DNA from: Microcaldota archaeon
GTDB taxonomy: Archaea > B1Sed10-29 > B47-G15
Assembly: GCA_003660975.1 (NCBI GenBank)
Contig: QMVG01000003.1
Coordinates: 1 to 64,000 of the forward strand
Length of the DNA: 64,000 nucleotides
Reading direction: 5' to 3'
Both the position numbers and the translations under genes were made by a program. This document shows positions 17,034-26,963 of the stretch, in pieces. The first letter of the stretch is position 1; each line of letters opens with the position of its first letter. The notes below the pieces were generated by a model. That model was not told the origin of the DNA. It ran no database searches and saw only the letters and a list, made by a program, of their open reading frames with translations.

Positions 17034-18023
17034 TTATGACCCAATACTTATAACCGCCAACACAGCAAACAAAGCTTGGAATGCTATTAATATCAAGCTT
17101 AATTGCCATTCCTTTGGTCTAAATAATTTCATTACTATGTGCGTTAAAGAGTATACTTTTCCATCATAGTGAAGTCTACCTTTTTTATCAGGTTTTCCGA
17201 AGTTCTGTGCTTTAAATTTAGACCTTGCCTTCAGGAAGAATTCTATTATCTGTGGCATTACAGCTATCACCGCGACCTTTTCAAGGCTTGAAGTTATAGC
17301 AGCAGCTGCGTAGACTGCTGCCATTGAGTAAGTTCCAACATCTCCAGGGAAAACCTTTGCAGGGTACCAGTTATAATATAAAAAGCCAATGGCTGCCCCA
17401 ATAAGAGACACAAGCAGAATAATTGGTGTCAGGTTATTTGGTGAAGTAATAACTGTCGCTGTTAATAAAGCCGTAGAGGCAATTATAACAGTGCCTGCTT
17501 CCAAACCATTGTGACCTGCCAGCATGTTGAACAGATTACTGCACGCCATGATTCCTATTGGAACTAAAACAAGGGAATACCATATTCCAAATTGAACCTC
17601 TCCCAAGAGTGGAACACCGACCTTACTTATTCCTGCACTTATTGCCACAAGAGGCAGGGACGCAAGGCCGGGAAGTAAAACCCTTGTTATTTTTCTTATT
17701 TTGAAGATGTCCGTGAAAAACGCCATAATGGAAATCATAAGAACTACCAATAAAGAAGCAAACAGTGTCTTTAAGTGTATTTCTGGGATGAACTTTATAG
17801 CAAATAATACACCTGCAGTGAAACCCCCTACTATGCCCAAACCACCAATCCTTGGAACAAGAACTTTTTTTGGATTTGCAAAATCCGGAACAAGAAAGCC
17901 CCTATCCCAATCTTTGTAAGGAAACTGCCTTACTTTTCTTATTACATACTTTGTTCCGATAACAGCTGAAATTAAGCTTACGAAAAACACCGCCACATAC
18001 AACAGCCAGGACATCTCACTCAC
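17034..18023 (-). CDS. UDP-GlcNAc:polyprenyl-phosphate GlcNAc-1-P transferase (MraY/WecA/AglH family)
   Basis: polytopic; PRIGGLGIVGGF, NLFNMLAGHNGLEAG, NWYPAKVFPGDVGTYSMA motifs. Confidence 0.88.
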   Translation of the reverse strand: MSEMSWLLYVAVFFVSLISAVIGTKYVIRKVRQFPYKDWDRGFLVPDFANPKKVLVPRIGGLGIVGGFTAGVLFAIKFIPEIHLKTLFASLLVVLMISIMAFFTDIFKIRKITRVLLPGLASLPLVAISAGISKVGVPLLGEVQFGIWYSLVLVPIGIMACSNLFNMLAGHNGLEAGTVIIASTALLTATVITSPNNLTPIILLVSLIGAAIGFLYYNWYPAKVFPGDVGTYSMAAVYAAAAITSSLEKVAVIAVMPQIIEFFLKARSKFKAQNFGKPDKKGRLHYDGKVYSLTHIVMKLFRPKEWQLSLILIAFQALFAVLAVISIGS

Positions 18024-20355
18024 CTAAGACATAATGTCCCTTTGTCCATTCACTATAGTTTTGGGGGTCTGGAATTCCTGTCCAGTTTACCTGGTATATT
18101 ACATTCCAGCCGTTATCAAATACTAATTTCACATGCTTAAGGTTAGGGTCCTTGAAGAATAGACGCTCTAAGAACGCATACAGAACAGGGGAATTAGGGT
18201 CAAACTGTGGATTTCTCCCACATTGCAATGCTGTTAAGAATATAGATTTTCTTCCTGCTGACGTCTCCAATGCGAAGAGTCTAGCAGGTAAGCCTTGATT
18301 GTTTAGGTTTGTCCCTGGCCACCTGACTGATTTTAACTCTTGCCACTGCTCTTTTGTGAACGTGAAGCCAACAGGCTTGCCTTTGGAATCATAACCTATA
18401 AGGCACTTTACTTTATTATCTTCTTCCTTGCATCCTATTTCTTGCATACAACCAATGTAATTTGCAGCAATGTGTTCAAGAGCCCCAAGTTTGCCTCCAG
18501 TGCTGCCACCTATTATTTCCTTATCTATTAAGATATGTGTTGTTTTCAATGGTTTCAGTAATGACAATGATTCTATCTCAGCTTTTTCAAGGGCTTCAGG
18601 ACTGCTATCGCAATATATTTGCCGTGTGTTCATATCTGCACTACATGGTGTGGTGTGTGTAAACGATGAAGCAACAGTGTAAATAACATCCTTGCGTGAT
18701 TGAATGTTATCCATGGATACATGGATTTTGTCTCCGTTGTAATAATCCATCCAATGGCCATAGTCCCACCAAGAGGTTATGACACTACCTACTGGTACTG
18801 CGGATGAATTTAAAAATCTGAATGTCTCAAACCATTCAGGAGGAACATCATAACCCATTGTTTTGGCTTGGGGTATTATAAAGACAATATAAGAAAAGGC
18901 AATGGCAATTGCAATGATAAAGTAAGACAGTTTTACAAATCTTTTTATTTCCTCTTTATTCACTTTTGTAAGTACCCTATCAATTATTTTATAACCTTCT
19001 CCTATGAAAATCGCAGCCCCAAGTGTAACAGGCGCTGAAAGGAAGAATAAAGTTATTGATTTTTCAGTTAGGAAATACATGGAAAAGAGTATAAAAGCAA
19101 CTGAAAATATGTCCCATTCATACTTAAAGTCTTTCCTTATGAAAGGCATAATAAGTATTTTAGCAATTAGGCCCACAACAGCCATAAAAGCAAACCAGAT
19201 AAGATAACCAAAACTGTTTTGCAAGTATGATAATCTACCAAGGAAGTTTCCACCAGGAATGGGGTTCTGCTCTGCAATTGTTTGAACCATTCTTATTTCA
19301 AAATCCCTTTGGGGAGGTGATGGTGTTATTCTTATCCCGATAAATGAGAAGGGATATTCTAAGGCCTGTATGCCATAGAATATGAAGCTTGACAGGATAA
19401 GTAATGCAGATATTATTGATGCAATTCTTATTATGTCTCTTTTCAGTAATTTAATCTCTATAAAGAAAGCTTTGCCTTTTAACTCTATCAGTGAAGCAAG
19501 CAGTACTGCAAAGCCCAATATTATTATTGAAACGTTTAGGTTATCAGGCCGGCCATTGAACAGATATTGTAAAGGTCCTGAAAACATTGTTATGAAAGAG
19601 GCAATTATTAACCATTTTCTATAAGCCTTTTTTTCAGAGCTCTCTTTATAATAACCAAATTCCTTTAGTATATATTGGATCACGAAATATGCCACCACAG
19701 TTCCTGATAGAAGTAGGATGCCCACCTTATAGGATTGCCATGTCATTGCTAACCAGGTCCATGACACTAGATTGAGGACAACATATCTCCAATTTCTCTT
19801 TTTTATCGTCATTATAAATAACCATAATGAGGCAAAAAGTAAGCATAGTCCTAAGGCATCGTTTTCAGCGTGGCCGTAAATTGAGTAAAATAGATTGTTG
19901 CTTGAAGCAGCTAAGAACAAAGCAGCCATCAGTCCAGTAAATCTGCCATATATCTCCTTCGTGAACAAAAAGATAAATACAATTACAAGAGAGCCTGCAA
20001 TAACGACAAGCCATGACGTTGTCTTTGCAAATAAATTATAATTGAAACCTTCAACACCATTGAAAAGTGCGACTGTTTTGTAAACTAGAGCATTTAACCC
20101 CCACCAGCCAAGCTCATTTGCTCCCTGGAGCCTACCATATGGATACCATGTGCTGTTGTCTTTATATGGAAACCAACCGCCGTTAATGATATGTTTAGTC
20201 TGCCTTGCTGCGTAAAAAGAGTCAAAGCCATATATGTCTGGGAATTTATCAGCAGTAAATGTTCTTATGCCAAAAGAAAGCAGAAATATTGATAAGACTA
20301 TTAGTATGTCTATTTTATTTCTTCTGAAGTAAGCTTTAAATGACATACTCAACAC
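18016..20355 (-). CDS. aglB: oligosaccharyltransferase STT3/AglB
   Basis: 779 aa polytopic; N-terminal DS(F)YAARQTKHI; catalytic SWWDYGHWMDYYNGDK motif. Confidence 0.93.
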   Translation of the reverse strand: MLSMSFKAYFRRNKIDILIVLSIFLLSFGIRTFTADKFPDIYGFDSFYAARQTKHIINGGWFPYKDNSTWYPYGRLQGANELGWWGLNALVYKTVALFNGVEGFNYNLFAKTTSWLVVIAGSLVIVFIFLFTKEIYGRFTGLMAALFLAASSNNLFYSIYGHAENDALGLCLLFASLWLFIMTIKKRNWRYVVLNLVSWTWLAMTWQSYKVGILLLSGTVVAYFVIQYILKEFGYYKESSEKKAYRKWLIIASFITMFSGPLQYLFNGRPDNLNVSIIILGFAVLLASLIELKGKAFFIEIKLLKRDIIRIASIISALLILSSFIFYGIQALEYPFSFIGIRITPSPPQRDFEIRMVQTIAEQNPIPGGNFLGRLSYLQNSFGYLIWFAFMAVVGLIAKILIMPFIRKDFKYEWDIFSVAFILFSMYFLTEKSITLFFLSAPVTLGAAIFIGEGYKIIDRVLTKVNKEEIKRFVKLSYFIIAIAIAFSYIVFIIPQAKTMGYDVPPEWFETFRFLNSSAVPVGSVITSWWDYGHWMDYYNGDKIHVSMDNIQSRKDVIYTVASSFTHTTPCSADMNTRQIYCDSSPEALEKAEIESLSLLKPLKTTHILIDKEIIGGSTGGKLGALEHIAANYIGCMQEIGCKEEDNKVKCLIGYDSKGKPVGFTFTKEQWQELKSVRWPGTNLNNQGLPARLFALETSAGRKSIFLTALQCGRNPQFDPNSPVLYAFLERLFFKDPNLKHVKLVFDNGWNVIYQVNWTGIPDPQNYSEWTKGHYVLGE

Positions 20356-20573: not shown

Positions 20574-20683
20574 GGGCCCGTAGCTCAGCCAGGTCAGAGC
20601 GACGGTCTTATATGGCACGTTCTGACTCAGTCGGTTCTGTCTGAGAGAACCGTAGGTCGCTGGTTCGAATCCGGCCGGGCCCA
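20574..20683 (+). tRNA. tRNA-Ile(UAU) with 35-nt intron (20613-20647) at canonical 37/38 position; 20683 is the discriminator A
   Basis: Acceptor GGGCCCG/CGGGCCC, D-stem GCTC/GAGC, anticodon stem ACGGT/ACCGT, loop CT-TAT-A-A after intron removal, T-arm GCTGG-TTCGAAT-CCGGC; pre-tRNA forms a BHB: CTTA/TGAG 4-bp central helix, TA^T and AG^A bulges, GGCA/TGTC outer helix. Confidence 0.92.
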
Positions 20684-20701: not shown

Positions 20702-21361
20702 ATGAAAAGAAAAAAGCAGAAGAGAAACAGTAAAATAAAGACGCTGAAAACATGGAACAGAGATGTTGCTATTGTTACATTTGTTGCTGTTTTTATGCTT
20801 CTTTCATTAACAGCTTTCGTAGGTATTCTGGTGTCTGGCATTTCAGATAATATAAGCAGGCTCAACAACAGAATCGCTGAGCTTGAAGAAGCATCTCATG
20901 CAGTGCAAATACCTGAGGACCAGAGCTGCTCTCTCGTTTGCTCTATAAACAGGAACATCACAGTGGACGTTCAGGCAAGCACTCAACCGCTTTGTATAGG
21001 TGATAAAGTGAAAATACTTGCCTTTTACAGCCCCACCTGCCCTTTCTCAGAATCACAAAGGCCTGTGCTGGAATCTCTGAAAGAAGAGTATGGAGATTCA
21101 CTTAATATCACATATATCTGCAAGTACATCCACCAGGGGGATGACCAAGAGTGCAGTAAGCAGGCTGATAAGTTCGATTATGGTTACTCAGATGGGATTG
21201 CTTTGCAGAAGAAATACGGGGTTGAAAGGGACGGAACTCCAGTATTAATTTTTGACTGTGGCATAAAAAGGTTAGGCAGTTTGGCCCAGAGGTATGGGGC
21301 AGAGATGGAAAAAGAAGACCTTAAAAAGATAATTGATGAACTTCTCAAACTAAACTCATAA
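20702..21361 (+). CDS. membrane-anchored thioredoxin-fold protein
   Basis: N-terminal TM, then KVKILAFYSPTCPFSESQRPVLESL and DGTPVLIFDCG; start set at ATG 20702. Confidence 0.7.
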   Translation: MKRKKQKRNSKIKTLKTWNRDVAIVTFVAVFMLLSLTAFVGILVSGISDNISRLNNRIAELEEASHAVQIPEDQSCSLVCSINRNITVDVQASTQPLCIGDKVKILAFYSPTCPFSESQRPVLESLKEEYGDSLNITYICKYIHQGDDQECSKQADKFDYGYSDGIALQKKYGVERDGTPVLIFDCGIKRLGSLAQRYGAEMEKEDLKKIIDELLKLNS

Positions 21362-21997
21362 GAGCCGGATTAATACTGCTATGTGGTCCTTATCAAAAGG
21401 CCTTAGATCTACTTTCTCCAATATTTCCACACCTGATGCCCTTATTTTTTCCAACTCTCTTTTAAATATTATCTTACTGTCTTCAGCCACATCTATGCTT
21501 CTTGCTTTTATCATTATCAGGCCATAGCCCCCTCTTTTTAAAAACTGTTTTACATTTTTGATAAATATCTCCGCTTGGTTTTTTTGAGACACATCTTGAT
21601 ACAAAAAATCAACACTATCAACTATATTTGCATATCTTTCAGGGTAATTGGCGTCCTCTAATATAGGAATGAGGTTTTTTCTCTCTTCACATAAAAAAAG
21701 CAGTTTTTCAAATGGTTTGCTGGCTATCTCAACACAATAAATAACACCGTTGACAGCAATATCGCTTATATGCGAAACAGTGGTTCCTTGCGCAGCTCCT
21801 AAGTAAAGTATGCTTGAGTTTTCGTTTATTGGAATTGTTTTTAGGCCTTTTAATATGGCAGCGGCCAGTTTTGACCTGAATGGGTCCCATTCCCTGAATT
21901 CTTCACTATCTATTTTTACTAATTTCTCGCCGTAGACGCTCTTTCCAGGTATTAAATTTTTAGTGTACAGTTTTTTTCCTTTTCTTATAATTCTCAT
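21356..21997 (-). CDS. flpA: fibrillarin-like rRNA/tRNA 2'-O-methyltransferase
   Basis: LYTKNLIPGKSVYGEKLV, FREWDPFRSKLAAAILKG, ILYLGAAQGTTVSHISDI, VDFLYQDVSQKNQAEIFIKN. Confidence 0.95.
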   Translation of the reverse strand: MRIIRKGKKLYTKNLIPGKSVYGEKLVKIDSEEFREWDPFRSKLAAAILKGLKTIPINENSSILYLGAAQGTTVSHISDIAVNGVIYCVEIASKPFEKLLFLCEERKNLIPILEDANYPERYANIVDSVDFLYQDVSQKNQAEIFIKNVKQFLKRGGYGLIMIKARSIDVAEDSKIIFKRELEKIRASGVEILEKVDLRPFDKDHIAVLIRLL

Positions 21998-24128: not shown

Positions 24129-26963
24129 GTGTTGGTTATTGCTGAGCAGTATGATTATATCTCAGTTGAGAAGAAGTGGCAAGAGGAATGGGCAGCTGCT
24201 GGCATAGGTGAAGCAGAGCCAGACCTAAAAAAGGATAAATTCTTTTTGATATTTGCATACCCAAATCCTACTGGCTACTTGCATACTGGCCACATGAGGG
24301 GTTTTTCTTACGCGGATATAATAGCAAGATATAACAGAATGAAGGGCTATAATGTCTTATTTCCATTCGGAGTCCATGCAACTGGAAATGGTGCAATGGG
24401 CGTTTCTATAAAAATAAAAAGAGATCCTGACTGGATTGAGTATCTCAAAAAGGGCGGAGCTTCTAGTGATGATATAAAAAGAATGGCTGATGACCCCATT
24501 TATGTGGTTGAGTATTTTAAGAAAAATTTCACCCAACAGTTCAAAGCTTTTGGTTTTTTGATGGATTGGCGCAGAACGCTCACCACAATTGATGATGGCT
24601 ACAAAAGGTTCATACAGTGGCAGTTTATGAAATTGAACGAAAAGAAACTGCTTGTTCAAAAGCCATACTACACCACATTCTGTGTGAGGTGTGGGCCCGT
24701 TGCTGTTGACCCTGCTGAGATGGAAATTTCAAAAGGAGGCAATGCCGAAAAGCTGGAGTTTACACTTTTAAAGTTTAAGTTTGGTGATGCTTACCTAATC
24801 GCTGCAACACTGAGGCCAGAGACAGTATATGGTCAAACCAATCTCTGGGTAGACCCAGATGAAACTTACGTTAAGGCAAAGGTGGATAGCGAAATCTGGA
24901 TAGTTAGTAGACAATGTGCAGAGAAACTGAAATATCAAAAGGACAAGGTAGAAATTATTGCTGAAGTGAAAGGAAATGAGCTTGTAGGTAAAAAGTGCGT
25001 AGCTCCTATGATTCACAGGGAAATTCCTATTTTGCCTTCTCACTTTTGCGATCCCAATATAGGAACAGGCATAGTAACCTCTGTGCCTTCTGATGCTCCT
25101 TACGACTATATTGCATTAGAGGATTTGAAGAGGAATAAGGAAGAGCAGAAGAGGTATAATTTAAAGCCAGAAGACGTTAACTTGGAGGTTATAAAGATAA
25201 TAAGTTCTCCAAGATTTGGTGATTTCGCTGCCAAAAAAGCCTGCGAAGAGTTTAATATAAAATCACAATTTGATAAGGAAAAATTAGAAGAGGCAACTCA
25301 AGAGGTTTACAAGGATGGATTTCATTCTGGCAGGTTAAACGAGAACTGCGGGAAGTATGCAGGCATGCCTGTTTCTGTTGCAAAGGACAAAGTTAAGGAA
25401 GAGTTAATTGAAATGGGAGAAGCAGACATCATGTATGACCTTTCTGAGGAGGTGATATGCAGGTGTGGTGCTCCAGTAATTATAAAGAGAGTCGATGACC
25501 AGTGGTTCATAAGGTATTCTGACGCTGAGCTTACAGAAAGAAGCAAGGAACATGTTGAGAACATGAACATCTATCCAGAGGATTACAAAAAGAACCTACC
25601 AGCTGTTCTGGATTGGTTCCAGGACAGGGCCTGCACAAGAATGGGAAATCTCTTGGGCACTCCTTTCCCATTTGATGAGAGGTGGATAATAGAGCCAATA
25701 GCAGACTCAACATTGTATCCGATGTATTACACCATCTCGAAATATGTTAATCAAGGCCTTGTAAAAGCAGAAGAAATGGATGAGGGGTGGTTTGATTACG
25801 TATTTTTGGGAAGAGGCAGGCCGAGGAATGAAATCCATAAAAGGATAAGGGAAGAGTATGAATATTGGTATCCACTAGATATAAATGTCGGGGGCAAGGA
25901 ACACCAAACAGTTCATTTTCCTGTTTTTGTAATGAACCACGTAGCTATCTTAAAAGAACAACACTGGCCTAGAGGGATTTTCGTTAACTGGTGGGTAACT
26001 GGAAAAGGAGGGAAGCTAAGCAAATCAAAGGGAGGCGTTGAAGCAATCCCTGATGCTGCTGAAAGGTATTCAGTTGACGCTATGAGGTTATATTACAGCC
26101 ATGTTGCTTCTCCTTTTGTTGATATGGCATGGGACCCAGAAGCAATAATCCCATATAGAAACCAGATAAAAAGATTCTACAGCCTTGTTAAAAATTTCAT
26201 TGAAAGAGCTAAGGACAGTGAGAAGAGAAAAGACATAGATAGGTGGTTGCTGTCTCGCCTAAACAGACGGCTTTTAGAGGCCAATGAAGCTATGAGCGTT
26301 TATGACCTTAAGAGGGCCGTAGATAATCTTTTCTTTGCACTAATTTCAGATGTTAACTGGTATATGAGGAGAGGAGGGAAAAACAAGGATGTTGCAATGT
26401 CCTTCACAGAATCGTGGTTAAAGGCTTTGACACCTTTTATTCCTCATGTTTGCGAGGAGTTGTGGCAGGAGCTTGGAAATAAATCTTTCATCTCTATGGA
26501 AAAGTGGCCAGAAGCAAACAAAGAACTGGTAGATGAGGAGGCAGAACTTTTAGAAGACATCTTACAGTCATTGATAGATGACATTAGCAATATTGAGAAG
26601 CTTACGAATAGGAAGGCCTCTAAGGTTCATATTTTCGTAGCCCCAGACTGGAAGAGAGAAGCATATAAGAAGGCCTCAGCTGTGAAAAACCCGAAACAGC
26701 TGATATCTGAACTTATGAAAGATGAGGAGATAAAAAAACACGGTAAGGAGGCAGTTCAGTTTGCAAACTGGTTGGCAAGACACGCCAATAATTTGAGTAC
26801 TATGGTGCTTTCCCAGGATAGAGAGATCCAATTTTTGCAAGAAGCAAAAGAGTACCTCTCATCTCTGTTTAACGCCGAGTTTTTCATACGCCCTGCAGAA
26901 GGCTCTGGAAATCAGAAAGCAAAGTCAGCAGTGCCTATGAAGCCTGCTGTGTATATTGAATAA
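24129..26963 (+). CDS. leuS: leucyl-tRNA synthetase (archaeal type), GTG start
   Basis: YPNPTGYLHTGHMRGFSYADIIARYNRMKGYNVLFPFG, GGKEHQTVHFPVFVMNHVAI, GKLSKSKGG. Confidence 0.95.
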   Translation: MLVIAEQYDYISVEKKWQEEWAAAGIGEAEPDLKKDKFFLIFAYPNPTGYLHTGHMRGFSYADIIARYNRMKGYNVLFPFGVHATGNGAMGVSIKIKRDPDWIEYLKKGGASSDDIKRMADDPIYVVEYFKKNFTQQFKAFGFLMDWRRTLTTIDDGYKRFIQWQFMKLNEKKLLVQKPYYTTFCVRCGPVAVDPAEMEISKGGNAEKLEFTLLKFKFGDAYLIAATLRPETVYGQTNLWVDPDETYVKAKVDSEIWIVSRQCAEKLKYQKDKVEIIAEVKGNELVGKKCVAPMIHREIPILPSHFCDPNIGTGIVTSVPSDAPYDYIALEDLKRNKEEQKRYNLKPEDVNLEVIKIISSPRFGDFAAKKACEEFNIKSQFDKEKLEEATQEVYKDGFHSGRLNENCGKYAGMPVSVAKDKVKEELIEMGEADIMYDLSEEVICRCGAPVIIKRVDDQWFIRYSDAELTERSKEHVENMNIYPEDYKKNLPAVLDWFQDRACTRMGNLLGTPFPFDERWIIEPIADSTLYPMYYTISKYVNQGLVKAEEMDEGWFDYVFLGRGRPRNEIHKRIREEYEYWYPLDINVGGKEHQTVHFPVFVMNHVAILKEQHWPRGIFVNWWVTGKGGKLSKSKGGVEAIPDAAERYSVDAMRLYYSHVASPFVDMAWDPEAIIPYRNQIKRFYSLVKNFIERAKDSEKRKDIDRWLLSRLNRRLLEANEAMSVYDLKRAVDNLFFALISDVNWYMRRGGKNKDVAMSFTESWLKALTPFIPHVCEELWQELGNKSFISMEKWPEANKELVDEEAELLEDILQSLIDDISNIEKLTNRKASKVHIFVAPDWKREAYKKASAVKNPKQLISELMKDEEIKKHGKEAVQFANWLARHANNLSTMVLSQDREIQFLQEAKEYLSSLFNAEFFIRPAEGSGNQKAKSAVPMKPAVYIE

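Follow-up and report, generated by a model that had tools for sequence, protein, structure and literature searches.

In the textbook archaeal route, AUA is read as isoleucine, and AUG is left alone, by tRNA-Ile2(CAU) carrying the agmatidine that TiaS provides. A genomic UAU anticodon fulfils the same task in Candidatus Korarchaeum cryptofilum and Nanoarchaeum equitans, where tRNA-Ile3(UAU) replaces tRNA-Ile2(CAU) (PMC6000648, PMC8450103). These are the only archaea with a UAU anticodon in published surveys (PMC6000648, PMC8450103), in which tRNA-UAU is nearly absent from the domain (2 of 167 genomes; PMC6000648), and the K. cryptofilum gene bears an intron (PMC6000648, PMC8450103). Among eukaryotes, the formation of ψ34 and ψ36 by Pus1 on the yeast tRNA-Ile(UAU) requires a duplex between anticodon and intron (PMC4090602, PMC11408192). 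In the red alga Cyanidioschyzon merolae, pre-tRNA-Ile(UAU) has introns in the D-, anticodon- and T-arm (PMC9602550).

The gene described here lies in a window of 64,000 nucleotides (positions 1 to 64,000 of contig QMVG01000003.1, assembly GCA_003660975.1, from a Microcaldota archaeon) and joins the known tRNA-Ile3(UAU) group. It has in common with K. cryptofilum the intron and with both archaea the genomic UAU; the lineage is another one, and the trait extends here to a whole class and to many other families. With the eukaryotic tRNA-Ile(UAU) it shares the anticodon, the 37/38 intron position and the pairing of anticodon and intron in the precursor (PMC4090602, PMC11408192), but the modification is known in eukaryotes, whereas the window gene is known from its sequence and has the archaeal bulge-helix-bulge (BHB) type of splicing. 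It differs from the C. merolae gene in having the 37/38 intron only.

Structure of the tRNA-Ile(UAU) gene and its intron

The original prediction of a tRNA-Ile(UAU) with a 35-nt canonical BHB intron, leaving the anticodon loop CU-UAU-A-A, is borne out by Rfam, by ARAGORN and by sequence reading (Table 1). The boundaries of the Rfam tRNA model coincide exactly with those of the gene (E 2e-10), and ARAGORN, which misses the gene in its default mode without introns, reports tRNA-Ile (tat) when introns are allowed. Base-by-base reading gives an acceptor stem GGGCCCG/CGGGCCC, a D-stem GCTC/GAGC, an anticodon stem ACGGT/ACCGT, a T-arm GCTGG-TTCGAAT-CCGGC and A73, and removal of the intron leaves a 75-nt mature tRNA with a clean cloverleaf.

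The BHB has a central helix of 4 bp (C-G, U-A, U.G and A-U) between two 3-nt bulges at 37/38, and an intron helix formed by GGCA (20614-20617) and TGTC (20638-20641; UGUC in the RNA). Each 3-nt bulge of an archaeal BHB is cut after its second nucleotide. Splicing at other positions, which would yield a different anticodon, falls away as an alternative: on sequence reading, none of the other registers fits a BHB. U34 and A35 sit inside the central helix CUUA/UGAG, so that anticodon and intron pair with each other, an arrangement that is kept in relatives.

Table 1. Features of the tRNA-Ile(UAU) gene (window positions)
Feature	Position	Strand	Basis
pre-tRNA-Ile(UAU) gene	20574..20683	+	Rfam RF00005, 59.8 bits; ARAGORN with introns allowed: tRNA-Ile(tat), intron of 35
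5' exon, tRNA positions 1-37	20574..20612	+	sequence reading, cloverleaf parser
D-loop/D-stem 3' strand GGTCAGAGCG	20592..20601	+	10-bp helix with 20618-20627; covariation
BHB central helix, 5' strand CUUA	20607..20610	+	pairs with 20642-20645 (sequence reading)
Anticodon UAU, tRNA positions 34-36	20609..20611	+	sequence reading; kept in 15/19 class genomes
5' splice bulge UA/U	20611..20613	+	3-nt bulge; cut after second nucleotide inferred
35-nt intron	20613..20647	+	BHB geometry from sequence, ARAGORN, parser
Intron 5' half CGTTCTGACT, D-arm partner	20618..20627	+	RNAfold; covariation across genomes
BHB central helix, 3' strand UGAG	20642..20645	+	pairs with 20607-20610 (sequence reading)
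3' splice bulge AG/A	20646..20648	+	3-nt bulge; cut after second nucleotide inferred
3' exon, tRNA positions 38-73	20648..20683	+	sequence reading, parser

Just upstream of the tRNA gene lies a gene for an STT3-like oligosaccharyltransferase (18016-20355, minus strand), and close to it a fibrillarin (box C/D methyltransferase) gene (21356-21997, minus strand). The window also encodes a LeuRS (24129-26963, plus strand) whose sequence suggests acquisition by horizontal transfer, since it is far closer to the LeuRS of Thermoplasmata and Methanomassiliicoccales (45-54%) than to that of Micrarchaeota (32-33%). AspRS identities gave no placement for the class, which is DPANN-like.

AUA decoding in the genome, in the class and across the archaea

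The source genome (G000; 1.33 Mb in 130 contigs, 89.7% complete) contains 43 tRNA matches, all of which were fetched and read. They include Ile(GAU) and Ile(UAU), and only two CAU tRNAs, both Met-type: one is initiator-like (L022; AGCGGGG at its start, GGG/CCC in the anticodon stem) and the other elongator-like (L005). No tRNA-Ile2(CAU) was found among these matches, and a pattern search of the classmates gave no third intronless CAU tRNA. For three intron-bearing tRNAs of this genome, the ARAGORN labels Ser aga, Leu taa and Stop tta were replaced on sequence reading by Thr(CGU), Leu(UAG) and Glu(UUC). TiaS, searched for through its domain PF08489, was found in none of the 19 class genomes (G000 and 18 others), not even in a classmate that is 98% complete (G008), while 4 of 4 archaeal control genomes are positive. 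The suggestion that this lineage may lack both TiaS and the CAU-type tRNA-Ile2 has thus withstood the search for the two components, neither of which was found.

Could TiaS or tRNA-Ile2(CAU) be present but missed in an incomplete assembly? Absence from G000 alone is weak evidence at this degree of completeness and fragmentation, and four expected anticodons (Arg CCU, Arg CCG, Leu GAG and Pro GGG) were not found among its tRNAs either. The absence of TiaS from the whole class, the nearly complete classmate included, nevertheless makes such an oversight very improbable.

Within the class, BLAST and direct reading recovered tRNA-Ile(UAU) in 15 of the 19 genomes, with the 37/38 intron in every one; the four genomes in which none was recovered are perhaps incomplete or perhaps carry extra introns in this gene. 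Comparison of these sequences indicates that the window gene is not a chance match, because the anticodon, the intron position and the BHB are all kept in these 15 genomes. Some classmates have further introns: a second one, in the T-loop of tRNA-Ile(UAU), is seen in G009 (L184/L271), G014 (L185), G017 (L186) and G011 (L187), which thus have two of the three intron-bearing arms of C. merolae, and G001 (L188) apparently has all three (D-arm, anticodon loop and T-loop). This likeness to the red alga is probably convergent. Elsewhere in the class, an elongator tRNA-Met (CAU) has apparent D-arm and T-loop introns and none in the anticodon loop (L191, G004), and a tRNA-Gly(CCC) has an apparent D-loop intron (L182, G008:C24:30581-30636).

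AUA is the preferred isoleucine codon in the 16 ORFs of the window, where it makes up 343 of 643 Ile codons (53%; 44 per thousand codons). As AUA is the main Ile codon, tRNA-Ile(UAU) carries a major load and the misreading of AUG would be costly; the earlier argument that the cell has to avoid such misreading holds, and this heavy use sharpens it.

Beyond the class, TiaS is present in 147 and absent in 150 of 297 sampled archaea. An Ile-type UAU tRNA occurs in at least 58 of the 150 TiaS-less genomes and in none of the 147 TiaS-bearing ones (Fisher P = 8e-21, a value in which the kinship of the genomes overstates their independence). The survey used the pattern CTTATA followed by a T-loop, and its matches were checked with a cloverleaf parser; the 58 genomes take in 3 with probable extra D-arm introns, 5 classmates read by hand and 9 Korarchaeum-like genomes for which the matched string was the sole basis. 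The other 92 TiaS-less archaea gave no match with this pattern, whose strictness makes it pass over long introns and variant loops. Matches in G027, G049, G070, G106 and G233 were dropped for want of a tRNA fold, and those in TiaS-bearing genomes proved to lie in coding DNA or in AT stretches that precede other tRNAs; the one exception is an odd intronless UAU tRNA with a D-arm that is not Ile-like (L208, G198). 

The contrast is visible in individual groups: TiaS is present, and no UAU tRNA was found, in two Thermoplasmata, two Methanomassiliicoccales and Archaeoglobaceae, whereas one Micrarchaeota MAG and one Pacearchaeota MAG lack TiaS and have an intron-bearing UAU tRNA. In the pattern survey, no UAU match came from two further Micrarchaeota and one further archaeon, all of them without TiaS; the same survey found no UAU tRNA in the TiaS-less family f19 (G027/G049), of which one genome is a single 1.42-Mb contig. 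Contrary to the expectation that a genomic UAU is rare and found in few lineages, Nanoarchaeum among them, the TiaS-less/UAU state is common in many small-genome archaeal lineages. Its breadth is new here, and our literature search found no paper joining TiaS with DPANN.

Complementarity between the intron and the D-arm

In the window gene, the 5' half of the intron, CGTTCTGACT, can form 10 bp with GGTCAGAGCG, which belongs to the D-loop and to the 3' strand of the D-stem. With such a helix the precursor would not fold as a cloverleaf: in RNAfold predictions, the minimum free energy is -50.4 kcal/mol, against -44.9 kcal/mol with the cloverleaf forced, a preference of 5.5 kcal/mol, and positions 22-26 pair with the intron with a probability of 0.98. 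For roughly half of the tested intron-bearing UAU precursors, the helix is likewise a high-probability prediction. The RNAfold preference alone is weak evidence because this program is known to misfold tRNAs, and the comparative evidence is better.

Over 44 introns, the helix score averages 15.5, whereas shuffled introns reach 11.5 (sd 0.42). The pairs were counted in alignment A2, which has the intron motif as its only anchor and leaves out motif-less introns; a gapless alignment of the intron starts (A1) was dropped for this use, as it misregisters by 1-2 nt. In A2, 87.9% of the cells are paired, versus 83.6% in shuffles (1/500), and 14 cells are changed on both sides, versus 4.3 (0/500), statistics that are inflated by related sequences. 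Covarying examples are the exon TGGAGCG with the intron CGCTCCA in G176, and the exon TTAGAGTGC with the intron GCATTCTAA in G185. These alignments indicate that the pairing covaries across families, a feature which is new here. It is not universal: nanohaloarchaeal-like and some other introns have no D-arm pairing, and in the Korarchaeum-like family (f25) it is weak or absent, unlike in the window gene.

The helix could also be functionless, either left over from an inverted duplication or produced by chance under compositional bias, and this has somewhat less than an even chance of being correct. Only 17 of 46 introns pair significantly when taken individually (P<0.05), and 1 of 15 control introns, that of tRNA-Tyr in G008, pairs with its D-arm in the same way. 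On the other hand, such an origin fits poorly with the excess over shuffles in both paired cells and both-side changes, with the pairing at slid registers, all of which fall below the true one (12-51%), and with the weakening of the helix when introns are swapped between families (from 15.45 to 13.64, sd 0.59). The G008 tRNA-Tyr pairing is TGGTAGAGC/GCTCTGCCG (L167), and the tRNA-Tyr of the source genome also has an intron complementary to its D-arm (GGTAG/CTGCC, L030). tRNA-Tyr is the other eukaryotic tRNA with an intron-dependent anticodon pseudouridine. A role of the intron as a box C/D guide was dropped, its CTGA-like motif not being conserved.

Avoidance of AUG and the possible role of the intron

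The window gene is very probably a tRNA-Ile3(UAU) that decodes AUA independently of TiaS, an assessment that covers its identity and decoding role and leaves modification aside. It would make the only AUA-reading tRNA-Ile of an archaeon without TiaS and without tRNA-Ile2(CAU). The archaeal tRNA-splicing endonuclease would cut the precursor at the BHB, ligation would produce the tRNA-Ile, and the loop of the spliced molecule would pair directly with AUA. Its expression, splicing and isoleucine charging are predicted; splicing, charging and AUA decoding are implied by established archaeal tRNA biology.

How would AUG then be avoided? The way that we favour, tentatively, is an intron-dependent modification, in which U34, and perhaps U36, would be modified before the intron is removed, in the manner of yeast Pus1 on pre-tRNA-Ile(UAU). 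A fold specific to the precursor would come from two helices, the conserved one between intron and anticodon and the covarying one between intron and D-arm. The intron cannot be generally required for modification, since several TiaS-less archaea (G118, G290, G256, G170 and G188, as read by the parser) have intronless UAU tRNAs.

These intronless tRNAs speak for a serious rival, possible though short of probable, in which U34 is unmodified, the tRNA body, IleRS and the ribosome prevent AUG misreading, a proposal made for Mycoplasma mobile, and the intron is no more than an inherited processing feature. The existence of bacterial UAU systems (PMC8450103; reportedly also Taniguchi 2013, cited in PMC11938285) counts for this rival too. 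It is less easily reconciled with the presence of the 37/38 intron in all UAU tRNAs recovered from the class, with the covariation of the intron 5' half and the D-arm, and with AUA as the major Ile codon. U34 might also be modified independently of the intron, by an Elp3-type or another wobble-uridine enzyme: archaeal Elp3 (cm5U34) is known (PMC6313347), and yeast tRNA-Ile(UAU) without its intron becomes partly ncm5U34 (PMC11408192). We consider this route unlikely. An xm5U34 usually strengthens pairing with G instead of preventing it.

The intron-dependent modification that we favour can be taken one step further, to the idea, more doubtful in this wider form, that the intron of tRNA-Ile(UAU) in TiaS-less archaea is a conserved precursor-specific RNA switch directing wobble-uridine modification before splicing. 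The intron 5' half would capture the D-arm and the upper anticodon stem and hold UAU in a hairpin or duplex. This is a concrete hypothesis, which arises from the intron position shared with eukaryotic tRNA-Ile(UAU) and from the covarying intron/D-arm helix.

In conclusion, roughly every second archaeal species in the sample has no TiaS and many of these have a UAU tRNA, so that the agmatidine route of the textbooks holds for a part of the archaea only. This raises a testable question: how do these cells, some of which use AUA as their main isoleucine codon, keep UAU off AUG? If the switch were real, it would be the archaeal counterpart of the eukaryotic intron-dependent formation of ψ34 and ψ36, and a general archaeal alternative to agmatidine.
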